A stretch of 64,000 nucleotides of DNA from an uncultured Actinomycetes bacterium (GTDB lineage Bacteria; Actinomycetota; Acidimicrobiia; Acidimicrobiales; RAAP-2): the NCBI GenBank assembly GCA_903924205.1, contig CAIYAP010000007.1:248001-312000 (forward strand), written 5' to 3'. Shown here in pieces: positions 5,428 through 42,919 of the stretch; position 1 is the stretch's first letter; every line of letters begins with the position of its first letter. A program made the position numbers and the translations under genes. The notes below the pieces were generated by a model, which had not been told where the DNA came from, ran no database searches, and saw only the letters and a program-made list of their open reading frames with translations.

Positions 5428-7361
5428 GCGGAAACCGGCTTTACCCCGAGGGACACGGGCGTGCGCAGGTCGAGGCCCTGGCCGGTGCCCTGGCTGCCGC
5501 CCGCCGGTGCCGTCGGTGACGCGACATGGTGCTCCAGGCTGAGCGTCGTGCAGGCCCCACAGTCGTAGCACGGCGTCCAGCGGCAGTCCTCGGTTCCCGC
5601 CTCGGCCAGTGCCGATTCCCACTCGCCCCAGAGGAAGTCCTCGTGAAGGCCTGCCGACAGGTGAGCCCAGGGCACGCACTCATCACGCCGGCGGTCACGT
5701 TCGCTCACTGACGCCAGCGAGAAGCCTTCCGCCTCGAGAGCACGCTCCCAGCGTTCGAGGGTGAACATCTCGCCCCACTCCTGAAAGGTGCCCCCGTCGC
5801 GCCAGACGCGCTCGAGTACCGCTCCCATACGTCGGTCGCCCCGACTCGACACCCCTTCGGCCGCGCTGGCCGACGGATCGTGCCAACGCACCGACAAGCC
5901 CTTGACGTCTCGAGACGCATCGCGCAGCAAGGTGATCTTGCGCTGCAATTCGTCGGGTGAGTCCTGACCGAACCACTGAAAGGGAGTTTGGGGCTTAGGC
6001 ACGAATCCACCGACACTCACCGTCACGGTGATGCTGCGTCGATATTTCCGTCCGATCTCGACAACCCGACGACCCAGTTCCACGATGCCGAGAACGTCCT
6101 CGTCGGTTTCGGTCGGCAGGCCAATAAGGAAATACAGCTTGACGCGTTGCCAGCCCTGCGCGAAGGCCGCGTCGGTGGCGGCATAGAGGTCCTCTTCGCT
6201 GATCAGCTTGTTAATCACCCGACGCATGCGCCAGGTGCCGCCCTCGGGGGCAAAGGTCAAACCGCTCTTGCGACCCTGTTGTATGGCCGCGGCGGTCCCC
6301 ACCGTGAAGGCATCGACACGCAAACTCGGGAGCGAGACGTTCACGCGGCCACAGCCCGCCGCCGGATCCATGATCTCCGTCACCACGTCTTCAATGCCCG
6401 AGTAATCCGCCGTCGAGAGACTGGTGAGCGCCACTTCGTCATAGCCAGTGCGTTCCATGCCGGCGCGCACCATGTCGACCACCTGGTGGCGAGGTCGCTC
6501 ACGGACCGGTCGAGTAATCATGCCCGCTTGGCAGAAACGACACCCACGAGTGCAACCGCGAAACACTTCGACGTTCAGTCGGTCGTGCACCACATCGGTG
6601 AGTGGCACGAGGCCGCGACGTGGATAAGGCCACTGGCCCAGGTCATACACGGTGCGCTTTTCCACCACCGCCGGTGCGCGGGGATCCAACATCTCGATAC
6701 CCGTCTGACGCTCACCCTCAAAGGTGGGGCGATAGAGGCCCGGTACGTACACGCCGGGAATCTGTGCGAGTCGACACCACATCTCGTGGCGATCGGTCAC
6801 GCCCTCGGCACGCCACGTGGCCATCACCGCCGTGATTTCCCCCACCACTTCCTCGCCGTCGCCGAGGACCGCCGCGTCGACGAAGGTCGCCATGGGCTCG
6901 GGGTTGTACGTACAGTGCCCCCCAATGAACACAAAGGTGTCATCACCGCCGCGATCCGCCGCATGCAGCGGAATGCCCGAGAGGTCAATCATGTTCAGCA
7001 CGTTGGTGTAGGTGAGTTCAGCCGCCACATTGAAAGCCAGAATGTCGAAGGAATTCGCGGGTCGGAAGCTGTCCACCGAGAAGAGCGGGATGCCCGCCCC
7101 GCGCATTTCCTTTTCCATGTCCACCCACGGCGCATACGTGCGTTCGCAGGTGGCGTCGTCACGGTCATTCAAAATCTCGTACAAAATCGTGAGGCCGGTA
7201 TTCGGCAGACCGATCTCGTACGTGTCGGGATAGGCCACGAGCCAGTTGATATTCCCCTCGTGCCGCTGCGGCTCGAGGCTGCCCACTTCTCCCCCGATAT
7301 ACCGGGCAGGCTTGTCTACCCGCCACAAGATCGGTTCAATGTCATTCCACAGACTGGTCAC
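5424..7361 (-). CDS. TIGR03960 family B12-binding-like radical SAM protein
   Basis: 645 residues. The N-terminal half resembles a cobalamin-binding Rossmann region (IGLPNTGLTILYEILN near 50). It is followed by the radical SAM domain with the Fe-S cysteines in FRGCTRGCRFCQAG (C270, C274, C277). The C-terminus has a further CYDCGAC cluster. The substrate is unknown. The gene overlaps mrdA upstream by an ATGA (7358-7361) and the TIGR03936 gene downstream by another, so the three are probably translated together. This places the pair between the cell-shape genes and the ribosomal protein genes. Confidence 0.92.
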   Translation of the reverse strand: MTSLWNDIEPILWRVDKPARYIGGEVGSLEPQRHEGNINWLVAYPDTYEIGLPNTGLTILYEILNDRDDATCERTYAPWVDMEKEMRGAGIPLFSVDSFRPANSFDILAFNVAAELTYTNVLNMIDLSGIPLHAADRGGDDTFVFIGGHCTYNPEPMATFVDAAVLGDGEEVVGEITAVMATWRAEGVTDRHEMWCRLAQIPGVYVPGLYRPTFEGERQTGIEMLDPRAPAVVEKRTVYDLGQWPYPRRGLVPLTDVVHDRLNVEVFRGCTRGCRFCQAGMITRPVRERPRHQVVDMVRAGMERTGYDEVALTSLSTADYSGIEDVVTEIMDPAAGCGRVNVSLPSLRVDAFTVGTAAAIQQGRKSGLTFAPEGGTWRMRRVINKLISEEDLYAATDAAFAQGWQRVKLYFLIGLPTETDEDVLGIVELGRRVVEIGRKYRRSITVTVSVGGFVPKPQTPFQWFGQDSPDELQRKITLLRDASRDVKGLSVRWHDPSASAAEGVSSRGDRRMGAVLERVWRDGGTFQEWGEMFTLERWERALEAEGFSLASVSERDRRRDECVPWAHLSAGLHEDFLWGEWESALAEAGTEDCRWTPCYDCGACTTLSLEHHVASPTAPAGGSQGTGQGLDLRTPVSLGVKPVSA

Positions 7362-9466
7362 GGCTTCGCAGGATAAGTCGTCGTGGACTCGGGAACGGTG
7401 ACGGGCAGGGAAATCTTGGTGGGCGCCAGTGGATGCGTCGCTAGATACTTAAACGTCTGAGCCACCGCGGGAGCGGCCGCCATCGCGCCGTAACCGCCTT
7501 CGCCAATGACGCAGAGCACCACGTATTTGGGTTTCGCGACCGGTCCAAAACCGACGAACCACGAGTTCGGTTCTTGGCCGGGTGAGTTTGACGCGGTACC
7601 CGTCTTGCCCGCGACGCGAAATGTCGACCAGTCGTAGCCCACCGATTGAAAGGCACCGTACGCCGTGCCGTCGGGGCTGTTGACGACGCCATACAGGCCC
7701 TGCAAGATGGGGTTGCGAACGCCGGGCGGCAAGTAGATGTGCCCGAGGACGCGATTGCCGTACACCTTCACCGGGTGGCCCGATGGACTCATCACCGCGG
7801 CTGCCACCTCCGGGGCGTAACGCGTACCACCGTTAGCGAAAGTGGCGTACGCGTTGGCCATGGCGATAGGCGTCACGGCCGTGGCGCCCTGGCCGAACGC
7901 CATTTCGATGTTGTCTCCCGTGTACCACTGGTAGTACGGGAAGGCTTTCGGCGCCTCGTTGTGCAGTTGCAGCCGCACCGCCGGCGCATCGACGCGACCG
8001 ACGACTTCGTTGGCGAGGTCGATTTGGCTCGTGCTGTCGAGTCCGTACTGGCTGGCTTCATTTTGAATCGGCGTCAACCCATACTTGGCCTGCCGAGACC
8101 AAAAGAGGTAGCCCAAGTTATAGAAGTAATAGTCCGATGATTTCGTGAGGGCCACGGGCAAGTTGATGTAGCCCGCACCGGTGGTTTCGTCATCGTGAAA
8201 CAGACACTGGTGACCCGAGAGGCAGTGAGGGACTTTGTACGTTCCGGTGTCATTCACCAACGCGTTCGCCGACAAGACGCGAGTCTTCAGCTGTGCGGTG
8301 GCCGAGATCATCTTGAAAGTAGAGCCCGGCGTATAGAGGCCCTGAATCGCGTAATTGTTAAACGCTCCAACTCGCGAGAGCTCGTTGTATCGGGTTTGCG
8401 TCAGTCCGGAGGACATTTCCTGCAGGTTGTAACTCGGGTAACTGGTCATCGCGAGCACGTGTCCGTTCGTCACATCCATCACCATGAGCGCGCCGTTGGG
8501 CGCCGGGGGGTACTTGCCCGAGCGCGGGTCGGCCACCTGACGGTCACGCAGGATCGTTGACGTCAGATACGAGGTGGCCGCTTGCTGCAAGCCGGCATCG
8601 ATATTCAAGATCAGCGAGTTCCCCGTCACCGGTGGGTTGTACTTCTGCTGGCCCAAAATGGTGCCCGCGGAGTTCACCCGCAGCACCTGCGATCCATCGT
8701 GACCGCGGAGGAAAGCTTCGTAGAACGACTCCACGCCCGATTGCCCAAAGTCGCTGCTGGCCGTATAGCCCAGACGGCCAAAGGCGGCGAGCTGGGAGGG
8801 GTTTATCGGACCCACGTACCCGAGAAGTTGCGACGCCAAGGATGCTCCGGCGGGGTAATCACGCTGCGACACGGTGACCACCGAGACCCCTGGGAATTCG
8901 CTCGAGTGGGTCTGCAAATAATTAATGAGCTGGTCCGACGCACCCACCACGATGGGGGCCGGCTGGTACGGCAAATACTGCACGTTTTTCACGATGGAGA
9001 GAATCTGCGCCTGGCTCTGCCCCGTCACCGACGACAGCGCGGCCAGCAATGCGGGATCGGCTTGCAGCTGCTGACGCGACACGCGGATTTCGCGCGTCTG
9101 CGTGTTACCAACCAGGACCGCCCCTCGTCGGTCGAAAATTTCACCTCGCGCGGCGGGGATGGAACTGACGCGATAGGAGTTGAGATTCACCGCCGCCACC
9201 GAGGACGAGTGCTCGACCACCTGCAGCTGAAAGACGCGTAACACAATGAGCGTGACCAGGGCAATCGACACCCCTCCGACGACCGCCCAGCGAACGTCGG
9301 GGCGGGCGCGCACGCTGGTGGGCTCCGCCACCAGATCGCGAAGGCCAAAGGTGCCACGCTCGTTGATGGTCGCGCCACGACCTCGGCTCGGACGAAGTGA
9401 GACCCAGGGACGCCAGCGCCGCCACCACTCGAGCGACACCGGTCGTGAGCGCCAGTTTCGGGCCAT
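7358..9466 (-). CDS. mrdA: Penicillin-binding protein 2 (elongation-specific transpeptidase)
   Basis: 702 residues: cytoplasmic N-tail, one membrane anchor (about 59-80), PBP dimerisation domain (RGEIFDRRGAVL near 107), and transpeptidase domain with SxxK at 382-385 (STFK), SxN-type SSD at 443-445 and KTG at 621-623. It crosslinks peptidoglycan during elongation with the MreBCD machinery encoded immediately upstream. Its ATG at 9466 overlaps the mreD stop by one base (TAATG). The usual partner rodA does not follow; a radical SAM gene does, so RodA must be encoded elsewhere. Confidence 0.95.
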   Translation of the reverse strand: MARNWRSRPVSLEWWRRWRPWVSLRPSRGRGATINERGTFGLRDLVAEPTSVRARPDVRWAVVGGVSIALVTLIVLRVFQLQVVEHSSSVAAVNLNSYRVSSIPAARGEIFDRRGAVLVGNTQTREIRVSRQQLQADPALLAALSSVTGQSQAQILSIVKNVQYLPYQPAPIVVGASDQLINYLQTHSSEFPGVSVVTVSQRDYPAGASLASQLLGYVGPINPSQLAAFGRLGYTASSDFGQSGVESFYEAFLRGHDGSQVLRVNSAGTILGQQKYNPPVTGNSLILNIDAGLQQAATSYLTSTILRDRQVADPRSGKYPPAPNGALMVMDVTNGHVLAMTSYPSYNLQEMSSGLTQTRYNELSRVGAFNNYAIQGLYTPGSTFKMISATAQLKTRVLSANALVNDTGTYKVPHCLSGHQCLFHDDETTGAGYINLPVALTKSSDYYFYNLGYLFWSRQAKYGLTPIQNEASQYGLDSTSQIDLANEVVGRVDAPAVRLQLHNEAPKAFPYYQWYTGDNIEMAFGQGATAVTPIAMANAYATFANGGTRYAPEVAAAVMSPSGHPVKVYGNRVLGHIYLPPGVRNPILQGLYGVVNSPDGTAYGAFQSVGYDWSTFRVAGKTGTASNSPGQEPNSWFVGFGPVAKPKYVVLCVIGEGGYGAMAAAPAVAQTFKYLATHPLAPTKISLPVTVPESTTTYPAKP

Positions 9467-17809: not shown

Positions 17810-17884
17810 CGGGAAGTAGCGCAGCTTGGTTAGCGCACCTGGTTTGGGACCAGGGGGTCGCGGGTTCGAATCCCGCCTTCCCGA
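17810..17884 (+). tRNA. tRNA-Pro (anticodon TGG)
   Basis: The acceptor stem CGGGAAG/CTTCCCG closes, and the anticodon stem CCTGG/CCAGG surrounds loop TTTGGGA, giving TGG. The T arm GCGGG-TTCGAAT-CCCGC is perfect. The discriminator is A, and CCA is not encoded. Confidence 0.97.
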
Positions 17885-17907
17885 CTCAGATGACGAGTGG
17901 CGAGTAT

Positions 17908-18195
17908 CTACTCGACGATTTCGCTGATCTGCATGATCGGCGAAATCGTGGTGAAATTTGCCACGTCCTCGATGACGGCGGCGCTCTTCTCAGAGCCCAT
18001 CGCCTCACCCAGAGCGTCCATGGAATCAAAGCTCACGTGAACGGCCGCCACGTAGGGGCCGTTGATGCCCTTTTCAATCAGCGCATCGCTCAGTCCCCAT
18101 GCGTCGCGCGCCATGGGAACGTGGGTGTCGCGGTAGTAGTCGTGGTCAAACGACGCGCCATCGGTGGTCGGGTAATAGACAGAAACACGGATCAT
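17908..18195 (-). CDS. EthD family small protein
   Basis: 95 residues starting MIRVSVYYPTTDGASFDHDYYRDTHVP, the typical ferredoxin-like EthD/dimeric alpha-beta barrel start with the conserved Y-x-x-x-H. Family members are small dimeric proteins. EthD is needed for ether degradation, but most homologues have no known role. A frame extension to GTG 18204 exists, but the ATG at 18195 has TAGCGT (plus 18203-18208) seven bases before it and fits the family N-terminus. It sits alone between tRNA genes. Confidence 0.85.
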   Translation of the reverse strand: MIRVSVYYPTTDGASFDHDYYRDTHVPMARDAWGLSDALIEKGINGPYVAAVHVSFDSMDALGEAMGSEKSAAVIEDVANFTTISPIMQISEIVE

Positions 18196-18267
18196 GAAGG
18201 TCACGCTAAACGATGGCGACCCGTCGGGTGGGTTTTCTCACACCCCCGGTGGGGCCGTCCACGTCAG

Positions 18268-18341
18268 TGCCCCCGGCAGGAGTCGAACCCGCAACCTGAT
18301 GGGTAGAAACCATCTGCTCTATCCAGTTGAGCTACAGAGGC
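18268..18341 (-). tRNA. tRNA-Arg (anticodon TCT)
   Basis: On the minus strand the acceptor GCCTCTG pairs with CGGGGGC (three G-T pairs). The anticodon stem GATGG/CCATC surrounds TTTCTAC, giving TCT. The T arm is GCGGG-TTCGACT-CCTGC, with one G-T pair. The discriminator is A, and CCA is not encoded. Confidence 0.96.
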
Positions 18342-18406
18342 GCCCCCTCATCGTACCGAGCGGCGTGGACATCAACTCGACGTCCTGTGGCATACTGAGA
18401 GTCCTT

Positions 18407-18481
18407 GGTGGGCGTAGCTCAGCTGGTTAGAGCGCCTCGCTGTGGCCGAGGAGGTCACGGGTTCGAGTCCCGCCGTCCACC
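18407..18481 (+). tRNA. tRNA-His (anticodon GTG)
   Basis: The acceptor GTGGGCG/CGTCCAC is preceded by a G at the -1 position and followed by discriminator C, the tRNA-His identity pair. The anticodon stem CCTCG/CGAGG surrounds CTGTGGC, giving GTG. The CCA end is encoded at 18482-18484. A terminator follows immediately. Confidence 0.96.
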
Positions 18482-18486
18482 CCAAG

Positions 18487-18526
18487 GCGCCGCCCGGTCG
18501 TTATGACCGGGCGGCGCTTACTTTTT
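18487..18526 (+). terminator. Intrinsic terminator of tRNA-His
   Basis: A 13-base-pair perfect GC-rich stem (18487-18499 with 18505-18517) and a GTTAT loop, followed by TTACTTTTT. It starts three bases after the encoded CCA. Confidence 0.93.
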
Positions 18527-18578
18527 GTCCCCGTGAGCGATAGTCTCGCGACGTCACCGACGACGAAGGGGGGATGGC

Positions 18579-20000
<1,422 letters not shown>

Positions 20001-20033
20001 CCCCCCAGGCTCCGAGGGGCTAATATCTCCGGT

Positions 20034-20105
20034 GCGCCTCTAGCTCAACGGCAGAGCAATGGACTCTTAATCCACAGGTTTCGGGTTCGAATCCCGAGGG
20101 GCGCA
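20034..20105 (+). tRNA. tRNA-Lys (anticodon CTT)
   Basis: Acceptor GCGCCTC/GGGGCGC (one T-G pair) and anticodon loop CTCTTAA giving CTT. T arm TCGGG-TTCGAAT-CCCGA, discriminator A, CCA encoded at 20106-20108. Confidence 0.96.
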
Positions 20106-20107
20106 CC

Positions 20108-20145
20108 AGCACACAACCCGGCCTCGCGGCCGGGTTGTGTGCTTT
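20108..20145 (+). terminator. Intrinsic terminator of tRNA-Lys
   Basis: A perfect 16-base-pair stem (20108-20123 with 20128-20143) and loop TCGC, followed by TTT only. The stem's first base is the last A of the encoded CCA, so the terminator abuts the mature tRNA end. Confidence 0.9.
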
Positions 20146-36968: not shown

Positions 36969-37894
36969 GCGAGAACTCCCCCCGCGTCACCGTCGTGGTG
37001 CCGATATACAACGTGGAGAAGTGGATCGAGGGATGCGTACAGAGTGTTTTGGCGTCACCCCTTGATCTTGAACTCATCGTCGTCAATGACTCATCGACTG
37101 ATCGATCTGCCGAGCTCGCGAAAGCTGTCATCAGCGATGATCCTCGCGGACGAGTTATTGACAATCAACGAAAGAAGGGTGGCGATGGAGCTCGCAATAC
37201 TGGCCTACTTGCCGCCACCGCTCCATTCATAATTTTTCTGGATGGGGATGATGAGTTCGCCGACGGTGGGCTTGAGATCTTGGTCACGTCAATTGAATCG
37301 GACCACCGGGTATCGGCCATCTGCGGATCATTCAACTCTCGGGACGAAGACGGCTCGCCCGTCATCGGTGGGTGGGAAACAGAACAGCAAACTGCCTTGG
37401 TGGGAAGTCCCGAACTCGCGCGGGCACCCGATTTCGCCCGCGCGCAATTAGCCCCTCCGCCAGGCGCGATCATCATGCAGCGAGACATCGTCTGCGACGT
37501 GGGCGGATGGGATGAGGGCGTTGAACTCGCGGGCCTAGCCACGGATTATGAATTATTGGCTCGCATGGCCACAGCTGCACCAATTGCGCTTCGGCGAGAG
37601 GTGGTGTGTCACTATTGCATCCGGCCGACCTCTTTGTCTCGTCGCCAGGATCATCCCCGAAAATACTTTCGGGCGCGAGTCTTGGCTATCAAGAGGGCGC
37701 CGCACCACGTGCGCACCGCCCTTGCTGTGGCCACCGCCACCCGCTCGTGGCGATTGGCTCGCGAACGAGTGACCGATTGGCGACAGCCCCGCCACATAGT
37801 TCGAGGTTTGGGTAATGCAACGCAGGCCTTCCTCTTTCTGGCGGCATGCATCGTTGGCCGAACCTCACGCGTGACCACCCTTTACGACGAATAG
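36965..37894 (+). CDS. Glycosyltransferase family 2
   Basis: 309 residues with the GT-A core: VTVVVPIYNVEKWIEGCVQS, VNDSSTDRS (nucleotide-sugar site), ARNTGL and the metal-binding FLDGDDEF. It adds sugars to a cell-surface polymer or lipid. Sequence around 36.7-37.9 kb is visibly less GC-rich than the flanks. The last 13 bases overlap the convergent secreted-protein gene. Confidence 0.9.
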   Translation: MSENSPRVTVVVPIYNVEKWIEGCVQSVLASPLDLELIVVNDSSTDRSAELAKAVISDDPRGRVIDNQRKKGGDGARNTGLLAATAPFIIFLDGDDEFADGGLEILVTSIESDHRVSAICGSFNSRDEDGSPVIGGWETEQQTALVGSPELARAPDFARAQLAPPPGAIIMQRDIVCDVGGWDEGVELAGLATDYELLARMATAAPIALRREVVCHYCIRPTSLSRRQDHPRKYFRARVLAIKRAPHHVRTALAVATATRSWRLARERVTDWRQPRHIVRGLGNATQAFLFLAACIVGRTSRVTTLYDE

Positions 37895-38334
37895 TTGGCC
37901 AGCGTGGTTCGCCACATGACGAATCCACGATGAAGTCGGTTGTAACACGAGACGGTGTCGGCCGTGAGGTCGCAGGTAATTGGTCCATCAAGCACTCGCG
38001 TAGAGGTATGCAGTGTGGGTGTCCCGAGACCAGGATTACCCAGACAGTTTTCCCTGCTGCACACAGTCCACGAGCCGTTGGCAGTCATTTTCACTGAGCG
38101 GTTGGTACTCACCGACTGGCAATAGGCATAGGTGCCAAGCGCTGGCGTACGGGAGAGTTCACATTGGATGTCACTCGCCGGCGCATAAAACTCGTATGCC
38201 GTAGTGGTCCCCACCGTCACCGTGTGACTGGGCTGAAAGCCCATCGATCTCGATGCGAAAAGGGCAAGGCTAATTACCGCCGCCATCACCACCAATCCAG
38301 GCAGGAGGATGCGTGTGAGGCGATGTTTGGTCAT
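37882..38334 (-). CDS. Small secreted or membrane-anchored protein (DUF6636-like)
   Basis: 150 residues: one N-terminal hydrophobic helix (ILLPGLVVMAAVISLALFA) acting as signal anchor, then a compact extracellular domain with five cysteines and the pattern FYAPASDIQCEL followed by YCQS, which resembles the small actinobacterial DUF6636 proteins. Function unknown. TACGGT (plus 38341-38346) is six bases before the ATG, with GGAG in between. Confidence 0.65.
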   Translation of the reverse strand: MTKHRLTRILLPGLVVMAAVISLALFASRSMGFQPSHTVTVGTTTAYEFYAPASDIQCELSRTPALGTYAYCQSVSTNRSVKMTANGSWTVCSRENCLGNPGLGTPTLHTSTRVLDGPITCDLTADTVSCYNRLHRGFVMWRTTLANYSS

Positions 38335-38414
38335 GTCTCCACCGTAGGGTTGAAGGGGGAACTTCTAGTGGGGTATAAAGACACTCCTCACGATCGGCAG
38401 GCACGCACTGCCAC

Positions 38415-38906
38415 TCACGATCTGAGGGTGCCCCTCGACATTGTTCTGTTGCGACGCTCAGTACTAGCAATTTGTCTCTGCAGTGATTCAGGAAAGTTGC
38501 TCTCCAAAAGATACCGAGCGCACTTCAGAAGGAGCGATGGATCGCTGAGCAATGCAGCAGCGAACTCAGGATCAAGTTGCCCGGTGGCCTCTGCTCGCCG
38601 AAGTGGTGCTGGCTCGTCCTTCACGTCTTCGCCATCGTTCGTGGTTATTACCCAAAGATCATCATTGGCGAGACGTCGGAAGGGAAACGCTGGCGTCGAC
38701 TTACGTGGTGGCCCAAAGTCATCTAACAGATTCTGGAGTGGAGCTTCAACGTCAACGTAGGGAAGAGGATCATTGCGACCTGCCGTCTGCAACCGGCCAA
38801 ACGCGTAGAGAAGGAGGAGAGGCTGATGGGGTGCACGCGTGCCTTCACGCCCCTACTGCCGGATACTTACGACTTTGGAGAGCCAGAAGTCAGATTCCTC
38901 GTTCAT
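38415..38906 (-). pseudogene. Decayed SBD-HNH restriction endonuclease (phosphorothioate-DNA-dependent type)
   Basis: Read from the ATG at 38906, the frame gives MNEESDFWLSKVVSIRQ, then a TAG (38855-38853), then GREGTRAPHQPLLLLYAFGR and on to the stop at 38415. The segments APHQPLLLLYA, LLDDFGPPRKS, FPFRRLANDDLW and FPESLQRQI match, in order, the N-terminal sulfur-binding-domain region of ScoMcrA-like type IV restriction enzymes that cut phosphorothioated DNA. Relatives usually have Trp where the TAG lies (TGG to TAG). The C-terminal HNH nuclease domain is missing; only 80 bases remain before the next gene. It lies downstream of the helicase and MazG genes on the same strand. The downstream 125-residue piece could at most be a lone binding domain. 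Confidence 0.78.
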
Positions 38907-38958
38907 GACTTTAGGTACGTCTTCATCAGAATCGAGTGGTTCTCCTCAACCGAGAGTT

Positions 38959-39336
38959 TCATAAGTTGGAATCTCCCTGATATGCGGTGTACTTCTCCGC
39001 AGAACCTCGAGATTTCTCGACTGGATACTTCTCCGCATTCACCTTGATCTTGTCGGCCAAGGCGTCATGAAGCGAAATGCCAAGAAGATCGGCAAGTCGG
39101 AGGAGATAGCCATAAACATCAGCTATTTCCTCTCGAACTGCTGACGCTCTTGCTGGATCGTTCATGACTTGGGTTGATTCTTCCGGCGTAAGCCATTGAA
39201 AGACCTCAACAAGTTCTCCGGCCTCTACGACCAAGGCCATCGCGAGGTTTTTCGGATTGTGAAACTGCTCCCACTCCCGCTCTGCGGCAAATTGTCTCAA
39301 CTGCACGACAAGATCTGTCGCCTTCGAATCATTCAT
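38959..39336 (-). CDS. MazG-like nucleotide pyrophosphohydrolase
   Basis: 125 residues of the all-alpha NTP pyrophosphatase fold. Mg-binding motifs are VVEAGELVEVFQW (E38, E41) and EEIADVYGYLLRLAD (E70, D73). It is closest in form to the short RS21-C6/dCTPase-like group that hydrolyses (d)NTPs to NMPs. Its ATG at 39336 lies eight bases inside the end of the helicase gene, so the two are expressed together. With a helicase-nuclease and a restriction remnant around it, a role in nucleotide depletion or clean-up during phage infection is a reasonable inference. Confidence 0.87.
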   Translation of the reverse strand: MNDSKATDLVVQLRQFAAEREWEQFHNPKNLAMALVVEAGELVEVFQWLTPEESTQVMNDPARASAVREEIADVYGYLLRLADLLGISLHDALADKIKVNAEKYPVEKSRGSAEKYTAYQGDSNL

Positions 39337-41221
39337 GGGCTGAGTTTCCTCCTATCGCTCGAGCAGCAGCGATCCGCTCACGGAGGTATTCACGAGTTTC
39401 TGGGTCAGTGCTGTAGAGATAAGTCCCCTTCATGCCCCTGGTCATGAGAACCCGATACTGGTTCTTGATGATCTGATCGATTTTTGCCTGCGTTGCCGCT
39501 GGGTTCTTCGTCATCGCTGATTTCCAACCCCAGAGAGAATCTCTGTCGGTCTTCGCCCGAGCCTTCACGTTGCTGAGCACTTTGCCATCTCGGACAATGA
39601 GGTCGTCGCCCATGATCACTCCCATGTAGGAGCCTTCAAGGCCTTGGGAAGTAAAGACGCATCCAACCTGATTTACTCCGTCAGGTTGTGCCATCCAACC
39701 TTGGCCATGGCGAGACAGATTCCACTGCATGGCGAAATTCTCGTCTTCGAAGGAAATATCAATTTGAGTCGGATCATCTCGACTGACCCAGTCCCAGCAG
39801 TATCCGGCCAAGAGACGTGAATCGTGCTTGCCGTGGCGGTTCTTTTCAAAAATCGCATCACGAAGCGCTGAAGGCGAATCAAAGATCTTGACCTCGTAAT
39901 CAGTCCGCAATGGGAGCTGGTAGTCAAGGTCTGAGATGCCTAGCGTCTGGTCGAGCCATGCCATGTAGTCATCTGCACCAGCACAGCGGAACTGGACCTC
40001 GAGATCGACAACTTCCGTCTCTATGCCGAGAGCCATCGCTTGAGATGCGATCTCATCGATCGTCCCCATGTCCCTCCAAGTCACCGCCTGGTTTTCGTCG
40101 ATGAAGAAGACCGAAACTTTTGAAGCTTCGATGATTTCTTTGATCTGGTTCTCCCCGAGATTCTTAAACCGACCAGATTTGTGGACCAAGCGATGGGCCT
40201 CATCAACAAGGAGCAGATCAAATGGATCTCCATCGTGGGCATGAAACCCGTCTGCGCCAATCAGGAGATTTCGAACTCCAGGCCCTTGACGGTCTCCTTT
40301 GAGTTTCTGAGCGTAAACACTTCTTGGAGCAGCGTTCTTCGTGACGTAACGAGCATTGAGACTTTCATTGATGGCCGTAGACAGCATCCGAAGCGCAATC
40401 ACGGACTTTCCAGTTCCCGGACCACCCTTGACAATCAGAACCTTGCGACCAGTTACCCCAGTGGCTTTGACAGCCTTTCGGATGAGTTCAAAAGCCGTTC
40501 GCTGAGTCCCCTTGAGGGTGAATTCTGGATTGCCCCTCAGCATTGAGGCCATTCGATCGGCAAGTTGACGCGACGGCGAGATCGGGCTTGCGTCAATGAG
40601 CTTCAGTGCGCTTGCTCCATCGCCAGATGAAATGCGCTCGGAAATGAAACTCCGGAGCGCAACTTCCTCATTCTTTACGAAGAACGGAGATCCTGAGAGG
40701 GTTTCTGGACGACCTGCGGCTTCCAGAATTCCTCGGTCTTCGAGATTGTGGAGATACGCGCACGAACTCAATTGAATGGGTTCCGAATCAACCACTTCGT
40801 AGAAGTCGGTAAGGATCGATGCATAGTCAGCAGCCTGAGCAGAAGGATGTTCTTCTCGTCTCCCCATCATGAGGACATGATCTGGGAGATCCAAGGACTC
40901 GAGGGAAGCATCAGACCACTGCTTCAATTCGATCACGACACTTTGACTCCTCGTTGCATCTCGACCGGACAAGAGCATGTCGATTCGTTGCTTCGTGCCC
41001 ACGATGCGAAATTCAAGTGCCACACCAGTAGTTTCAGGAACAGAGCGATCGTTAAGAACCCAGTACATGGCGTTGAGCGATGAGGCCCAACTCCGATACT
41101 CAGATCCATCTTTGGCAAGTTCGACGCCTAGTTGATCGCGGACGCCTTCCCATACGCGATCGGCAATGTGCGGACCGTCGGCAAGGAATTCAGACTTTGT
41201 CTTTAGATAAGCAATAGCCAA
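39329..41221 (-). CDS. DUF2075 (Schlafen group 3-like) helicase with N-terminal PD-(D/E)XK-like nuclease
   Basis: 630 residues. The N-terminal 150 contain R-I-D-M (D81) and VVIELKQW (E98-L-K100), a PD-(D/E)XK nuclease pattern. The superfamily 1-type motor follows: Walker A GGPGTGKS (266-273), Walker B LLLVDEAHR (D340-E341), FFIDENQAV (motif III), VQFRC (motif IV) and NQYRVLMTRGMKGTYLY (motif VI). The TTG start at 41221 has GAAGGAG eight bases upstream. Base composition is more A/T-rich than the flanking genes, consistent with recent transfer. Exact biological role unknown; such proteins cluster with defence genes. Confidence 0.85.
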   Translation of the reverse strand: MAIAYLKTKSEFLADGPHIADRVWEGVRDQLGVELAKDGSEYRSWASSLNAMYWVLNDRSVPETTGVALEFRIVGTKQRIDMLLSGRDATRSQSVVIELKQWSDASLESLDLPDHVLMMGRREEHPSAQAADYASILTDFYEVVDSEPIQLSSCAYLHNLEDRGILEAAGRPETLSGSPFFVKNEEVALRSFISERISSGDGASALKLIDASPISPSRQLADRMASMLRGNPEFTLKGTQRTAFELIRKAVKATGVTGRKVLIVKGGPGTGKSVIALRMLSTAINESLNARYVTKNAAPRSVYAQKLKGDRQGPGVRNLLIGADGFHAHDGDPFDLLLVDEAHRLVHKSGRFKNLGENQIKEIIEASKVSVFFIDENQAVTWRDMGTIDEIASQAMALGIETEVVDLEVQFRCAGADDYMAWLDQTLGISDLDYQLPLRTDYEVKIFDSPSALRDAIFEKNRHGKHDSRLLAGYCWDWVSRDDPTQIDISFEDENFAMQWNLSRHGQGWMAQPDGVNQVGCVFTSQGLEGSYMGVIMGDDLIVRDGKVLSNVKARAKTDRDSLWGWKSAMTKNPAATQAKIDQIIKNQYRVLMTRGMKGTYLYSTDPETREYLRERIAAARAIGGNSAHE

Positions 41222-41585
41222 CTGTTCAACTCCTTCTCGTTAACGATTTGATTGAACTTCGGGATGACCGCAGTCCTAACACGTTACGTACCCTCCTCCT
41301 AGACAACAGTGGAAACAAGGATCTCTCTTAGATGCAAGATTCCCGTCGCGATTCAGCGAGTCGGGCCGCTATGTAAGCCCAAACTATATCTGAGGTCACT
41401 TCTAGAACTCTTGTATTGGGTGCCGCAGAACCTGTTTCCTGAGTCAACGGTCGGTTGAATTCATTTTGTGAAGATTCGAGTTAGCGATTGCGCAGAAAAC
41501 CTGCCGCCACTTCCACGAATTGACAGTCGAGTACCCGATGTCCGAGGTATTTCGAGCCGTTCTCGCTGATATGTACGCTTATTGA
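41222..41585. other. 364-base gene-free stretch upstream of the helicase
   Basis: It is relatively A/T-rich and holds no convincing ORF, tRNA or repeat. It carries the helicase Shine-Dalgarno on the left. On the right is TACGCT (41574-41579), six bases before the GTG of the oxygenase gene. A 120-codon minus-strand frame that enters it (41481-41843) is mostly antisense to the oxygenase gene. It may mark the edge of the transferred segment, but no direct repeat or att-like site was seen. Confidence 0.5.
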
Positions 41586-42416
41586 GTGAATGCAATCGAA
41601 CTCGTTTCCCTGGCCCCCTATCCGATCGATGGCAGCAACCCGACCGACTACGACTCCATCGTCGCTGCCGCCCAAGCCCAGATCGATGCCCACGGTTACG
41701 CCGAACTCCCTGGGTTCATCACGCCCGAAGGTGTTGCCGCTCTCGTTGCCGACGCGGAATCCCTCGCCGAGCGCGCCCACCCCTCTCATGGCCCAGGAAC
41801 GGCGTATCTCGAACTTCCCTCGGACGACTGGCCTGACGACCACCCACGAAAGAAATGGATGGACTATGGAGTACGTGCCGTCGGATACGACGTCATCCCC
41901 TACTCGTCACCCCTTCGCCAGATTTACGAACTCCCCGATCTCGATCACTTCATTTCTGACGTCTTAGGTCGAGGCCCCCTTTTCCACTACGCCGATCCGT
42001 GTGGTGCCCTCAATCTGGCGGTCATGGGCGAAGGTGACCAACTTCAGTGGCACTTTGACCAAACCGACTTCGTCGTGTCGCTCGCTATTCAGGACGCCGA
42101 TGAAGGTGGTGACTTTGAGGTGGTCCCCCTCACGCGCTCAGCTACCGAAGAGAACTACGACGAGGTCAACGCCATCTTGAATGGCGACCGGTCTCGAGTC
42201 ACCCGATTAGAAATGACCCCAGGAACTTTGCTGATCTTCGAGGGCCGATACTCGCTTCACCGTGTCAGTCCTATTCGCGGCAACACCCTGCGCCACGTAG
42301 GACTCTTGGCGTATGACACGAAGCCGGAAACTACCTCCTCCGAGCTGCTGCGCGCTATCCGATACGGCCGCACCGAGGCTTTCGACACTCCCCCGACCAC
42401 CTGGCCGGTGGCCTGA
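41586..42416 (+). CDS. Fe(II)/2-oxoglutarate-dependent oxygenase (HalD/BesD or phytanoyl-CoA dioxygenase-like)
   Basis: 276 residues with a double-stranded beta-helix core. The metal triad is H156-x-D158 (QWHFDQTDF) and H225 (YSLHRVSPI); R226 or a nearby Arg would bind 2-oxoglutarate. The flanking pattern FVVSLAIQDADEGGDFEVVP resembles the HalD/BesD-type amino-acid oxygenases, but an Asp is present where true halogenases have Gly or Ala, so hydroxylation or demethylation is expected. GTG start; TACGCT lies six bases upstream. TGATG overlap with the Fae-like gene implies a shared job. Confidence 0.82.
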   Translation: MNAIELVSLAPYPIDGSNPTDYDSIVAAAQAQIDAHGYAELPGFITPEGVAALVADAESLAERAHPSHGPGTAYLELPSDDWPDDHPRKKWMDYGVRAVGYDVIPYSSPLRQIYELPDLDHFISDVLGRGPLFHYADPCGALNLAVMGEGDQLQWHFDQTDFVVSLAIQDADEGGDFEVVPLTRSATEENYDEVNAILNGDRSRVTRLEMTPGTLLIFEGRYSLHRVSPIRGNTLRHVGLLAYDTKPETTSSELLRAIRYGRTEAFDTPPTTWPVA

Positions 42417-42919
42417 TGTGGGTCGGTGAAGGCTTCGTGGGATCGGGCCCCGAAGCCGCCCACCTCAACACCATTCTCGGGTATCGAGACGGTGCCGTCG
42501 GCACGGCTTTCGCCACGGGATTGGCCACTCCCCGAGAGGGTCACGCCGGTTTTCTCGTGATTGCTCAACCCAACCAACCAGTGGTGCCTCCCACCCTGTT
42601 CGTGAACAAGGCCATGATCACCGGGGAGCGCCATGCGCAGTTGACCTGGGGGCCCGCGCAACTCGGGGTCGCGAGCGGCGTCCTGGACGCCCTCGCCGAC
42701 AAGGTGATCGATACAGCCATCGCTCATCAGCTCGTCCTCATCGCCGCGGTGTGGGTGGACCCGACGGCCGAGAACGCTGACGCTGTCTACGCCAATAATC
42801 GTGAGGCCACCTACCTCGCCCTGAAAAGAGGTTTCGACACGAGTTCGAACTTGGACGAACTCATCGCCCTGCGCGACATCCCCATCAACGGGTACTACAC
42901 CCCGCCCACCTTGCGGTAA
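42416..42919 (+). CDS. Formaldehyde-activating enzyme (Fae) homologue
   Basis: 167 residues, the usual Fae length. It starts VGEGFVGSGPEAAHLN, aligning with the VGEALVGDGNEVAHID start of methylotroph Fae, with the catalytic His kept as H16 and the following Asp changed to Asn. PNQPVVPPTLFVNK, WGPAQLGVASGVLDA and the C-terminal NREATYLALKRG also match. Fae condenses formaldehyde with tetrahydromethanopterin. No H4MPT genes are in this window, so the cofactor is uncertain; it may be a Fae-like protein with another role. The ATG overlaps the oxygenase stop by one base. Confidence 0.85.
   Translation: MWVGEGFVGSGPEAAHLNTILGYRDGAVGTAFATGLATPREGHAGFLVIAQPNQPVVPPTLFVNKAMITGERHAQLTWGPAQLGVASGVLDALADKVIDTAIAHQLVLIAAVWVDPTAENADAVYANNREATYLALKRGFDTSSNLDELIALRDIPINGYYTPPTLR

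Follow-up and report, generated by a model that had tools for sequence, protein, structure and literature searches.

We suggest that a gene for a putative nuclease-helicase and an adjacent gene for a MazG-like nucleotide hydrolase form a small, horizontally moving defence module, in which the nuclease-helicase is the core and MazG is an accessory enzyme acting on the nucleotide pool; from the gene context we give this reading a probability of roughly 0.55. The pair lies in a 64,000-nucleotide stretch (the window) of the genome of an uncultured member of the Acidimicrobiales, assembly GCA_903924205.1, contig CAIYAP010000007.1, positions 248,001 to 312,000. The helicase and MazG genes overlap by 8 bases, reading ATGAATGA, and the MazG start is located inside the 3' end of the helicase gene. 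A previous sequence-only reading of the window had proposed both genes as an anti-phage unit. Both open reading frames (ORFs) are complete as it had described them, with matches to families PF09848 and PF12643, and the 8-base overlap was read directly in the sequence.

The linkage of the two genes was found repeatedly in other genomes. A species-genome collection was scanned with the helicase alignment, blind to MazG, and the best 80 of at least 120 relatives were kept. MazG is adjacent to the helicase in 52 of these 80 loci (38 upstream, 14 downstream), which belong to bacteria and archaea; by MazG profile search 49 of the 52 are on the same strand and within 150 bases, and the three that complete the number (L083, L141, and L142) are 78-93 bases from the ORF start. 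Thirteen of the 52 pairs overlap by 1-8 bases. The same profile detected a MazG in 56/80 loci and in 0/20 control stretches of the same genomes, hand-placed at round coordinates on the same contigs and comprising 3.4 times less DNA. Conserved adjacency, the absence of which had been set beforehand as a reason to abandon the prediction, is thus observed. In 28 of 30 of the genomes with such loci PF12643 matches numbered only 1-3 per genome, and the remaining two had none; chance adjacency is thus negligible and, with the empty controls, was rejected.

Among the 172 genomes of the window's own family, 14 carry the helicase (two as partial matches) and 18 carry a MazG relative. Five of the 12 near-full-length family helicases have MazG directly downstream, namely those of the window, G133, G096, G084, and G150, the last with a broken MazG. 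Helicase matches were also present in 38 plasmid and 4 phage records, and in four of the eight records examined (Halalkalicoccus, Marivirga, Priestia, and a Microcystis phage record) MazG directly precedes the helicase. A viral scan detected at least five helicase relatives, one of them (L144) with an adjacent MazG. The Microcystis phage Mwe-JY31 record (L063), 22 kb long and submitted as a phage genome, has the MazG-helicase pair at 5660-7866, with its genes annotated only as hypothetical. On Marivirga plasmid p1 (L061, 5221-9573) six broken helicase ORFs come after MazG and look like the decayed remains of two tandem copies.

The gene neighbourhood was compared with PADLOC models (E<=1e-15), the helicase and MazG being excluded from the neighbour set. 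The scanned proteins were 150 of the 183 neighbours of 20 loci, two of which (L124 and L128) have no intact adjacent MazG, 148 of the 223 control proteins of the same 20 genomes, and 125 of the 327 neighbours of other loci. The 150 neighbours matched 141 models and the 148 control proteins matched 5 (best 1.5e-49), where models are redundant, one protein can match several names, and model counts are not protein counts. Among the 25 most frequent models, those with best matches below 1e-50 carry ten system names: PDC-S41, SoFic, PDC-S07, PD-Lambda-5_A, Cas9, HamB, REase_I, PDC-S05, PDC-S01, and PD-Lambda-2_B. For the 125 proteins, which come from 50 of the 59 other loci, the number of matched models was 67; BrxP, AbiEii, and HEC-06 were among them, as was mREase_IV, matched by four proteins. 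The enrichment near defence genes expected for such a module was therefore detected, and the helicase/MazG pair combines conserved gene association with location among defence genes.

MutT relatives were detected in 13/80 loci (one weak) versus 0/20 controls, and relatives of the PLD-DEAD-DUF3427 enzyme in 11/80 loci (one weak) versus 1/20 controls, by profiles built from members found in the same loci; both contrasts are suggestive only, because the control DNA is 3.4 times smaller. McrB/McrC-type genes are present in several loci. In L070, L074, L093, L105, L122, and L133 both a MutT and a PLD-DEAD-DUF3427 (mREase_IV-like) enzyme are near the helicase, hinting at a larger cluster of a modification-dependent nuclease with nucleotide cleaners. 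A second, distinct SLFN-g3-type helicase ORF is present in the same locus in L087, L098, L111, L138, L141, and L142, the one in L111 being a full match to PDC-S41.

By its match to PF09848 (SLFN-g3_helicase; 298 bits, cut-off 24, profile positions 1-354 of 354), the larger window protein is a member of the Schlafen-group-3 (DUF2075) helicases. No Schlafen RNase domain was matched in Pfam at E<=0.05, and the protein is thus not a Schlafen protein proper. The N-terminal 234 residues matched no Pfam domain, and the nuclease part, used as a 36-sequence profile, had no meaningful match in PDB (one chain at E=2.4). Residues E70, D81, E98, K100, and Q129 are invariant in 59/59 aligned helicases (the window protein and those of 58 of the 80 loci, with a single helicase ORF below 700 residues), as are Walker A (G266-K272) and D340, E341, and H343 of the DEAH motif. 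The arrangement D81-x16-E98-x-K100 is also invariant in a second set of 30 helicases, ten LexA-fused forms included. We take D...ExK to be the catalytic motif of PD-(D/E)XK nucleases, and on this conserved motif the N-terminal part is a putative nuclease of that superfamily. The proposed PD-(D/E)XK-DUF2075 helicase is hence confirmed in its helicase domain by PF09848, while its nuclease part, which Pfam and PDB profiles do not support, rests on the invariant D81, E98, and K100.

The partner protein is, by family match and acidic motif, a MazG-like nucleoside triphosphate (NTP) pyrophosphohydrolase of the DCTPP1 type, in agreement with the earlier annotation as a MazG-like enzyme. It scored 60.5 bits with PF12643 (cut-off 27), and its best PDB matches are RS21-C6 / deoxycytidine triphosphate (dCTP) pyrophosphatase 1 (E=1.9e-25), with which it is alignable over residues 14-118. 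The ExxE...ExxD acidic motif is present (E38/E41...E70/D73). Among 50 aligned MazGs (the window protein and 49 of 58 MazG ORFs) E38, E70, D73, and K96 are invariant, and E41, W22, H26, and W48 are conserved at 90% or more. An ungapped alignment with RS21-C6 at offset 25 places the invariant residues at E63, E95, D98, and K121 and the other four at E66, W47, H51, and W73, respectively, which presumably form the metal and base sites of RS21-C6.

The phylogenetic analysis suggested that the two genes have not always travelled together. The helicase tree (FastTree) included 96 of 107 loci; L145, L147, L148, and L064 (apparently the same 8,846-base contig as L040) were left out by choice, and L047, L048, L058, L061, L077, L138, and L146 were left out with a short, split, or low-scoring helicase ORF, L138 being absent from the approximately unbiased (AU) test trees too. 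At least 22 changes of MazG presence, at least 7 of MazG side, and at least 7 of the S24 fusion described below are needed on this tree. The MazG tree is poorly resolved (8 of 57 branches starred, 112 columns) and tends to follow host lineage. A single clade with 99% support unites eight Lachnospiraceae MazGs, whether upstream or downstream of the helicase, and the seven actinobacterial MazGs group together with support 84; outside such host groups are two Clostridia-type MazGs (L091 and L115) and some spirochaete MazGs. For these groups, picked after the MazG tree was seen, the AU test rejects as a single clade the helicases of the eight Lachnospiraceae loci (p=0.001) and of six of the seven actinobacterial loci (p=1e-65).

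Since these MazGs group by host but their helicases do not, different helicases were paired with local MazGs more than once. Given the disagreement of the trees, MazG is described as an accessory enzyme that has repeatedly been partnered with the helicase, not as half of a pair strictly inherited together, and the repeated pairing argues for selection on an enzymatic pool role rather than on a fixed physical partnership. The proposal of one functional unit is qualified by the discordant trees and by the frequent lack of MazG, which only 5 of the 12 family helicases have alongside, one of the five being broken.

A C-terminal extension of 143-204 residues was detected in at least 12 of the 80 loci (L065, L067, L072, L075, L088, L090, L095, L099, L102, L107, L113, and L118), and the split helicase of a thirteenth locus, L077, has a tail that may be of the same kind. 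The four extensions searched against Pfam all match Peptidase_S24, and a ten-sequence profile of the extension matches LexA (E=6.5e-6) and UmuD (E=0.0017). A GxSM serine and a later lysine are present in 12/12 extensions and an A-A-G or A-C-G cleavage-like site in 10/12, which we assume to be the residues of LexA-type self-cleavage. The LexA/UmuD-like S24 fusion suggests SOS-linked control in these members; the window helicase is without the LexA-like domain.

The proposed module would confer phage resistance as follows. The helicase-nuclease, with its superfamily 1 (SF1) type motor and PD-(D/E)XK nuclease, would load on the DNA of an invading phage or plasmid, with modified DNA or replication/repair intermediates as the probable loading sites, and the invader DNA, its likely substrate, would then be degraded. 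MazG would hydrolyse a deoxycytidine triphosphate to its monophosphate, either dCTP itself or, as seems more likely, a C5-modified or damaged form. The invader would be denied those building blocks, and modified or damaged nucleotides would be kept out of the host DNA, where they would invite self-attack. As far as the available text of these sources goes, the human relative has high affinity for dCTP and modified dCTP (PMC7162842), and 5-OH-dCTP is cleaned by the mycobacterial MazG (PMC3855555). A role as pool enzyme is indicated by the disagreeing trees, by the PRA-PH-type NTP pyrophosphatase that replaces MazG in L133 (22 bases downstream of the helicase), and by the MutT relatives in 13 of 80 loci. 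Pool sanitising is probably favoured over outright dCTP starvation, because the recruited enzymes resemble ordinary local MazGs, MutT is nearby, and some neighbours are modification-dependent nucleases.

The reading that MazG is instead a second effector, depleting canonical dCTP to starve phage replication while the nuclease-helicase degrades DNA, is possible, and we consider it rather unlikely. Depletion of deoxynucleoside triphosphates (dNTPs) is an established defence principle, used by dCTP deaminase and dGTPase defences, which act on the dNTP pool during infection; the overlapping genes and the conserved DCTPP1-type catalytic and pocket residues, as we understand their roles, would suit it as well. 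The lean of the MazG tree to host lineage, which looks like recruitment of ordinary MazGs from the local stock, and the nearby MutT, usually a cleaner of damaged dNTPs, speak against it, and a constitutive dCTP-depleting enzyme would be costly.

A more specific form of the immune module is speculative, and we give it low odds: the PD-(D/E)XK-SF1 helicase would attack invader DNA with modified or damaged bases, the pool-cleaning hydrolases (DCTPP1-type MazG, PRA-PH-type MazG, and MutT) would be the self/non-self safeguard, and in the LexA-fused members RecA-triggered self-cleavage would license the nuclease. If true, immunity would be tied to dNTP-pool quality and to the SOS signal.

Equally doubtful is a function in DNA repair or genome maintenance, where the helicase-nuclease would process damaged DNA, MazG and MutT would clean the pool, and the defence neighbourhood would reflect shared mobility only. 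LexA-like fusions, MutT, and MazG are all tied to DNA damage in other settings, to our understanding; the patchy presence (14 of 172 family genomes, with the two partial matches), the occurrence on plasmids and in phage records, and the association with defence genes relative to stretches of the same genomes are hard to reconcile with it. It is quite improbable that MazG holds the helicase-nuclease in check by binding to it, as a regulator or in the manner of an antitoxin, which the tight spacing (overlap in 13 of the 52 pairs) could suggest, since intact helicases without MazG are common and the two trees disagree, contrary to what one would expect of a specific binding partnership. Coincidental neighbourhood in a low-GC island, for which only the DNA similarity with G027, covering the helicase gene without MazG, could be cited, is contradicted by adjacency in 52/80 loci versus 0/20 controls in bacteria and archaea and can be dismissed.

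Several observations weigh against the defence module with accessory MazG. MazG is not adjacent in 28 of the 80 loci, five of which reach contig ends (L077, L096, L101, L107, and L135); in L070 and L116 MazG is a few hundred to a few thousand bases from the helicase, and in L124 a MazG with a stop is beside it (position computed by hand). Seven of the 12 near-full-length family helicases have no adjacent MazG, including the nearest relative, G027 (90% identical), where the DNA similarity covers the helicase gene alone (39357-41225, 81%), with no flank similarity and no MazG at the locus. MazG is likewise not adjacent in four of the eight plasmid and phage records (Methanosphaera, two Hymenobacter plasmids, and Halomonas, where it is 609 bases downstream of the helicase). 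MazG therefore cannot be essential everywhere, being missing beside many intact helicases. Neither the helicase nor MazG meets a PADLOC 2.0.0 model, nor does any of the four window ORFs at 37882-41221, and the helicase scores are low (PDC-S41 31.4 bits, AbiO and Nhi 27.7-29.2 bits). The small control DNA limits the MutT and DUF3427 contrasts, and DNA repair would likewise fit the LexA-like fusion, MutT, and MazG.

Table 1. Features of the module and its surroundings in the window
Feature	Position	Strand	Basis
Putative PD-(D/E)XK nuclease (residues ~40-160) and Schlafen-group-3/DUF2075 superfamily 1 helicase (residues 259-606), 630 residues, TTG start	39329-41221	-	PF09848 E=1.2e-88 and invariant motifs
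MazG-like all-alpha NTP pyrophosphohydrolase, dCTP pyrophosphatase (DCTPP1) type, 125 residues	38959-39336	-	PF12643 E=2e-16 and PDB matches
Remnant of a phosphorothioated-DNA-binding restriction endonuclease, N-terminal half only	38415-38792	-	NF045808 E=5.8e-23, in-frame stop upstream
364-base gap flanked by the divergent helicase and HalD-like genes, with no credible gene in it	41222-41585	.	ORF list
Low-GC island, 0.52-0.55 versus 0.57-0.67 in other 1-kb windows	38001-42000	.	GC per 1-kb window

The restriction-enzyme remnant is apparently separate from the two-gene module: a tblastn search (E<=0.01) of the 113 loci L036-L148 detected no relative, and the remnant was rejected as a third component. 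When 38415-38906 is read straight through, a stop is met in frame. The open part scored 81.4 bits with NF045808, below the cut-off of 180, and the match covers only profile positions 37-149 of 284, so the C-terminal half is absent. The gene annotated before as a broken SBD-HNH restriction endonuclease is only a remnant without the C-terminal HNH half.

GC in the four 1-kb intervals of the island is below that of every other 1-kb interval of the 64 kb (minimum 0.569), and the non-coding stretch on the right side is real; the sequence-only reading had noted this stretch and a composition less GC-rich than either flank. The gap is overlapped only by the end of one antisense ORF and presumably contains the module promoter. 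The Pfam-matched genes near the module are metabolic (sulfotransferase, glycosyltransferase, HalD-like, and Fae-like), and the 150-codon ORF at 37882-38334 had no Pfam match. On the right flank (41586-42919) a HalD-like oxygenase gene is followed by a gene of the formaldehyde-activating-enzyme (Fae) family, and 3 of 60 searched congeners have the same adjacent pair. No left-flank gene was detected by tblastn in three 19-kb stretches around the congener HalD-Fae pairs; therefore an empty insertion site could not be shown. Four tRNA genes (Pro, Arg, His, and Lys) are clustered within 2.3 kb elsewhere in the window (17810-20108).

Helicase-nuclease defences and nucleotide-pool defences are each known, and the module repeatedly joins both, apparently with more than one recruitment of the pool enzyme. 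Such a module would link nucleotide sanitation to nuclease immunity and would point to a new means by which self-attack is avoided. For DUF2075/COG3410, a poorly studied family, it offers a testable role, and the LexA-like fusion puts SOS-gated immunity within direct experimental reach.

Among known systems, PDC-S41 (PADLOC) shares the PF09848 helicase domain, the N-terminal part of its model weakly matches some members of the present family, and two neighbour proteins of the 20 loci are PDC-S41 matches. One protein of L111 (2851-4992) reached 818 bits with the model PDLC05014, versus 31 bits for the window protein, whose best stretch is 514-603 only, and the window helicase is therefore a distinct lineage. 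The motor region of the single-gene helicase-type defences Nhi and AbiO is alignable with the window helicase at residues 238-385, but the match is partial (27.7 and 29.2 bits), and we know of no MazG partner in either system. Assignment of the helicase to PDC-S41, Nhi, or AbiO was rejected on score (28-31 bits).

In the available text of the open literature searched, including DUF2075/COG3410 papers (PMC9394441 among them), no description of the helicase/MazG pair was found. DefensePredictor (PMC13092281), as far as its accessible text goes, names MazG as a predicted, unvalidated defence domain; the terms DUF2075, Schlafen, and helicase are absent from the main text, and the present partner of MazG is not named there.

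The window MazG shares PF12643 membership and the invariant acidic residues with DCTPP1 / RS21-C6 and the MazG-like NTP pyrophosphatases, and differs in that its gene is no housekeeping gene but lies in accessory DNA, next to a nuclease-helicase. Defences that deplete nucleotides through dCTP deaminase or dGTPase use enzymes other than MazG and, to our knowledge, have no nuclease-helicase partner. The type IV (modification-dependent) restriction enzymes, McrBC and PLD-DEAD-DUF3427 (PADLOC mREase_IV), belong to nuclease and motor families other than those of the present protein, but like it they combine a nuclease with a motor, and they are found among its neighbours.

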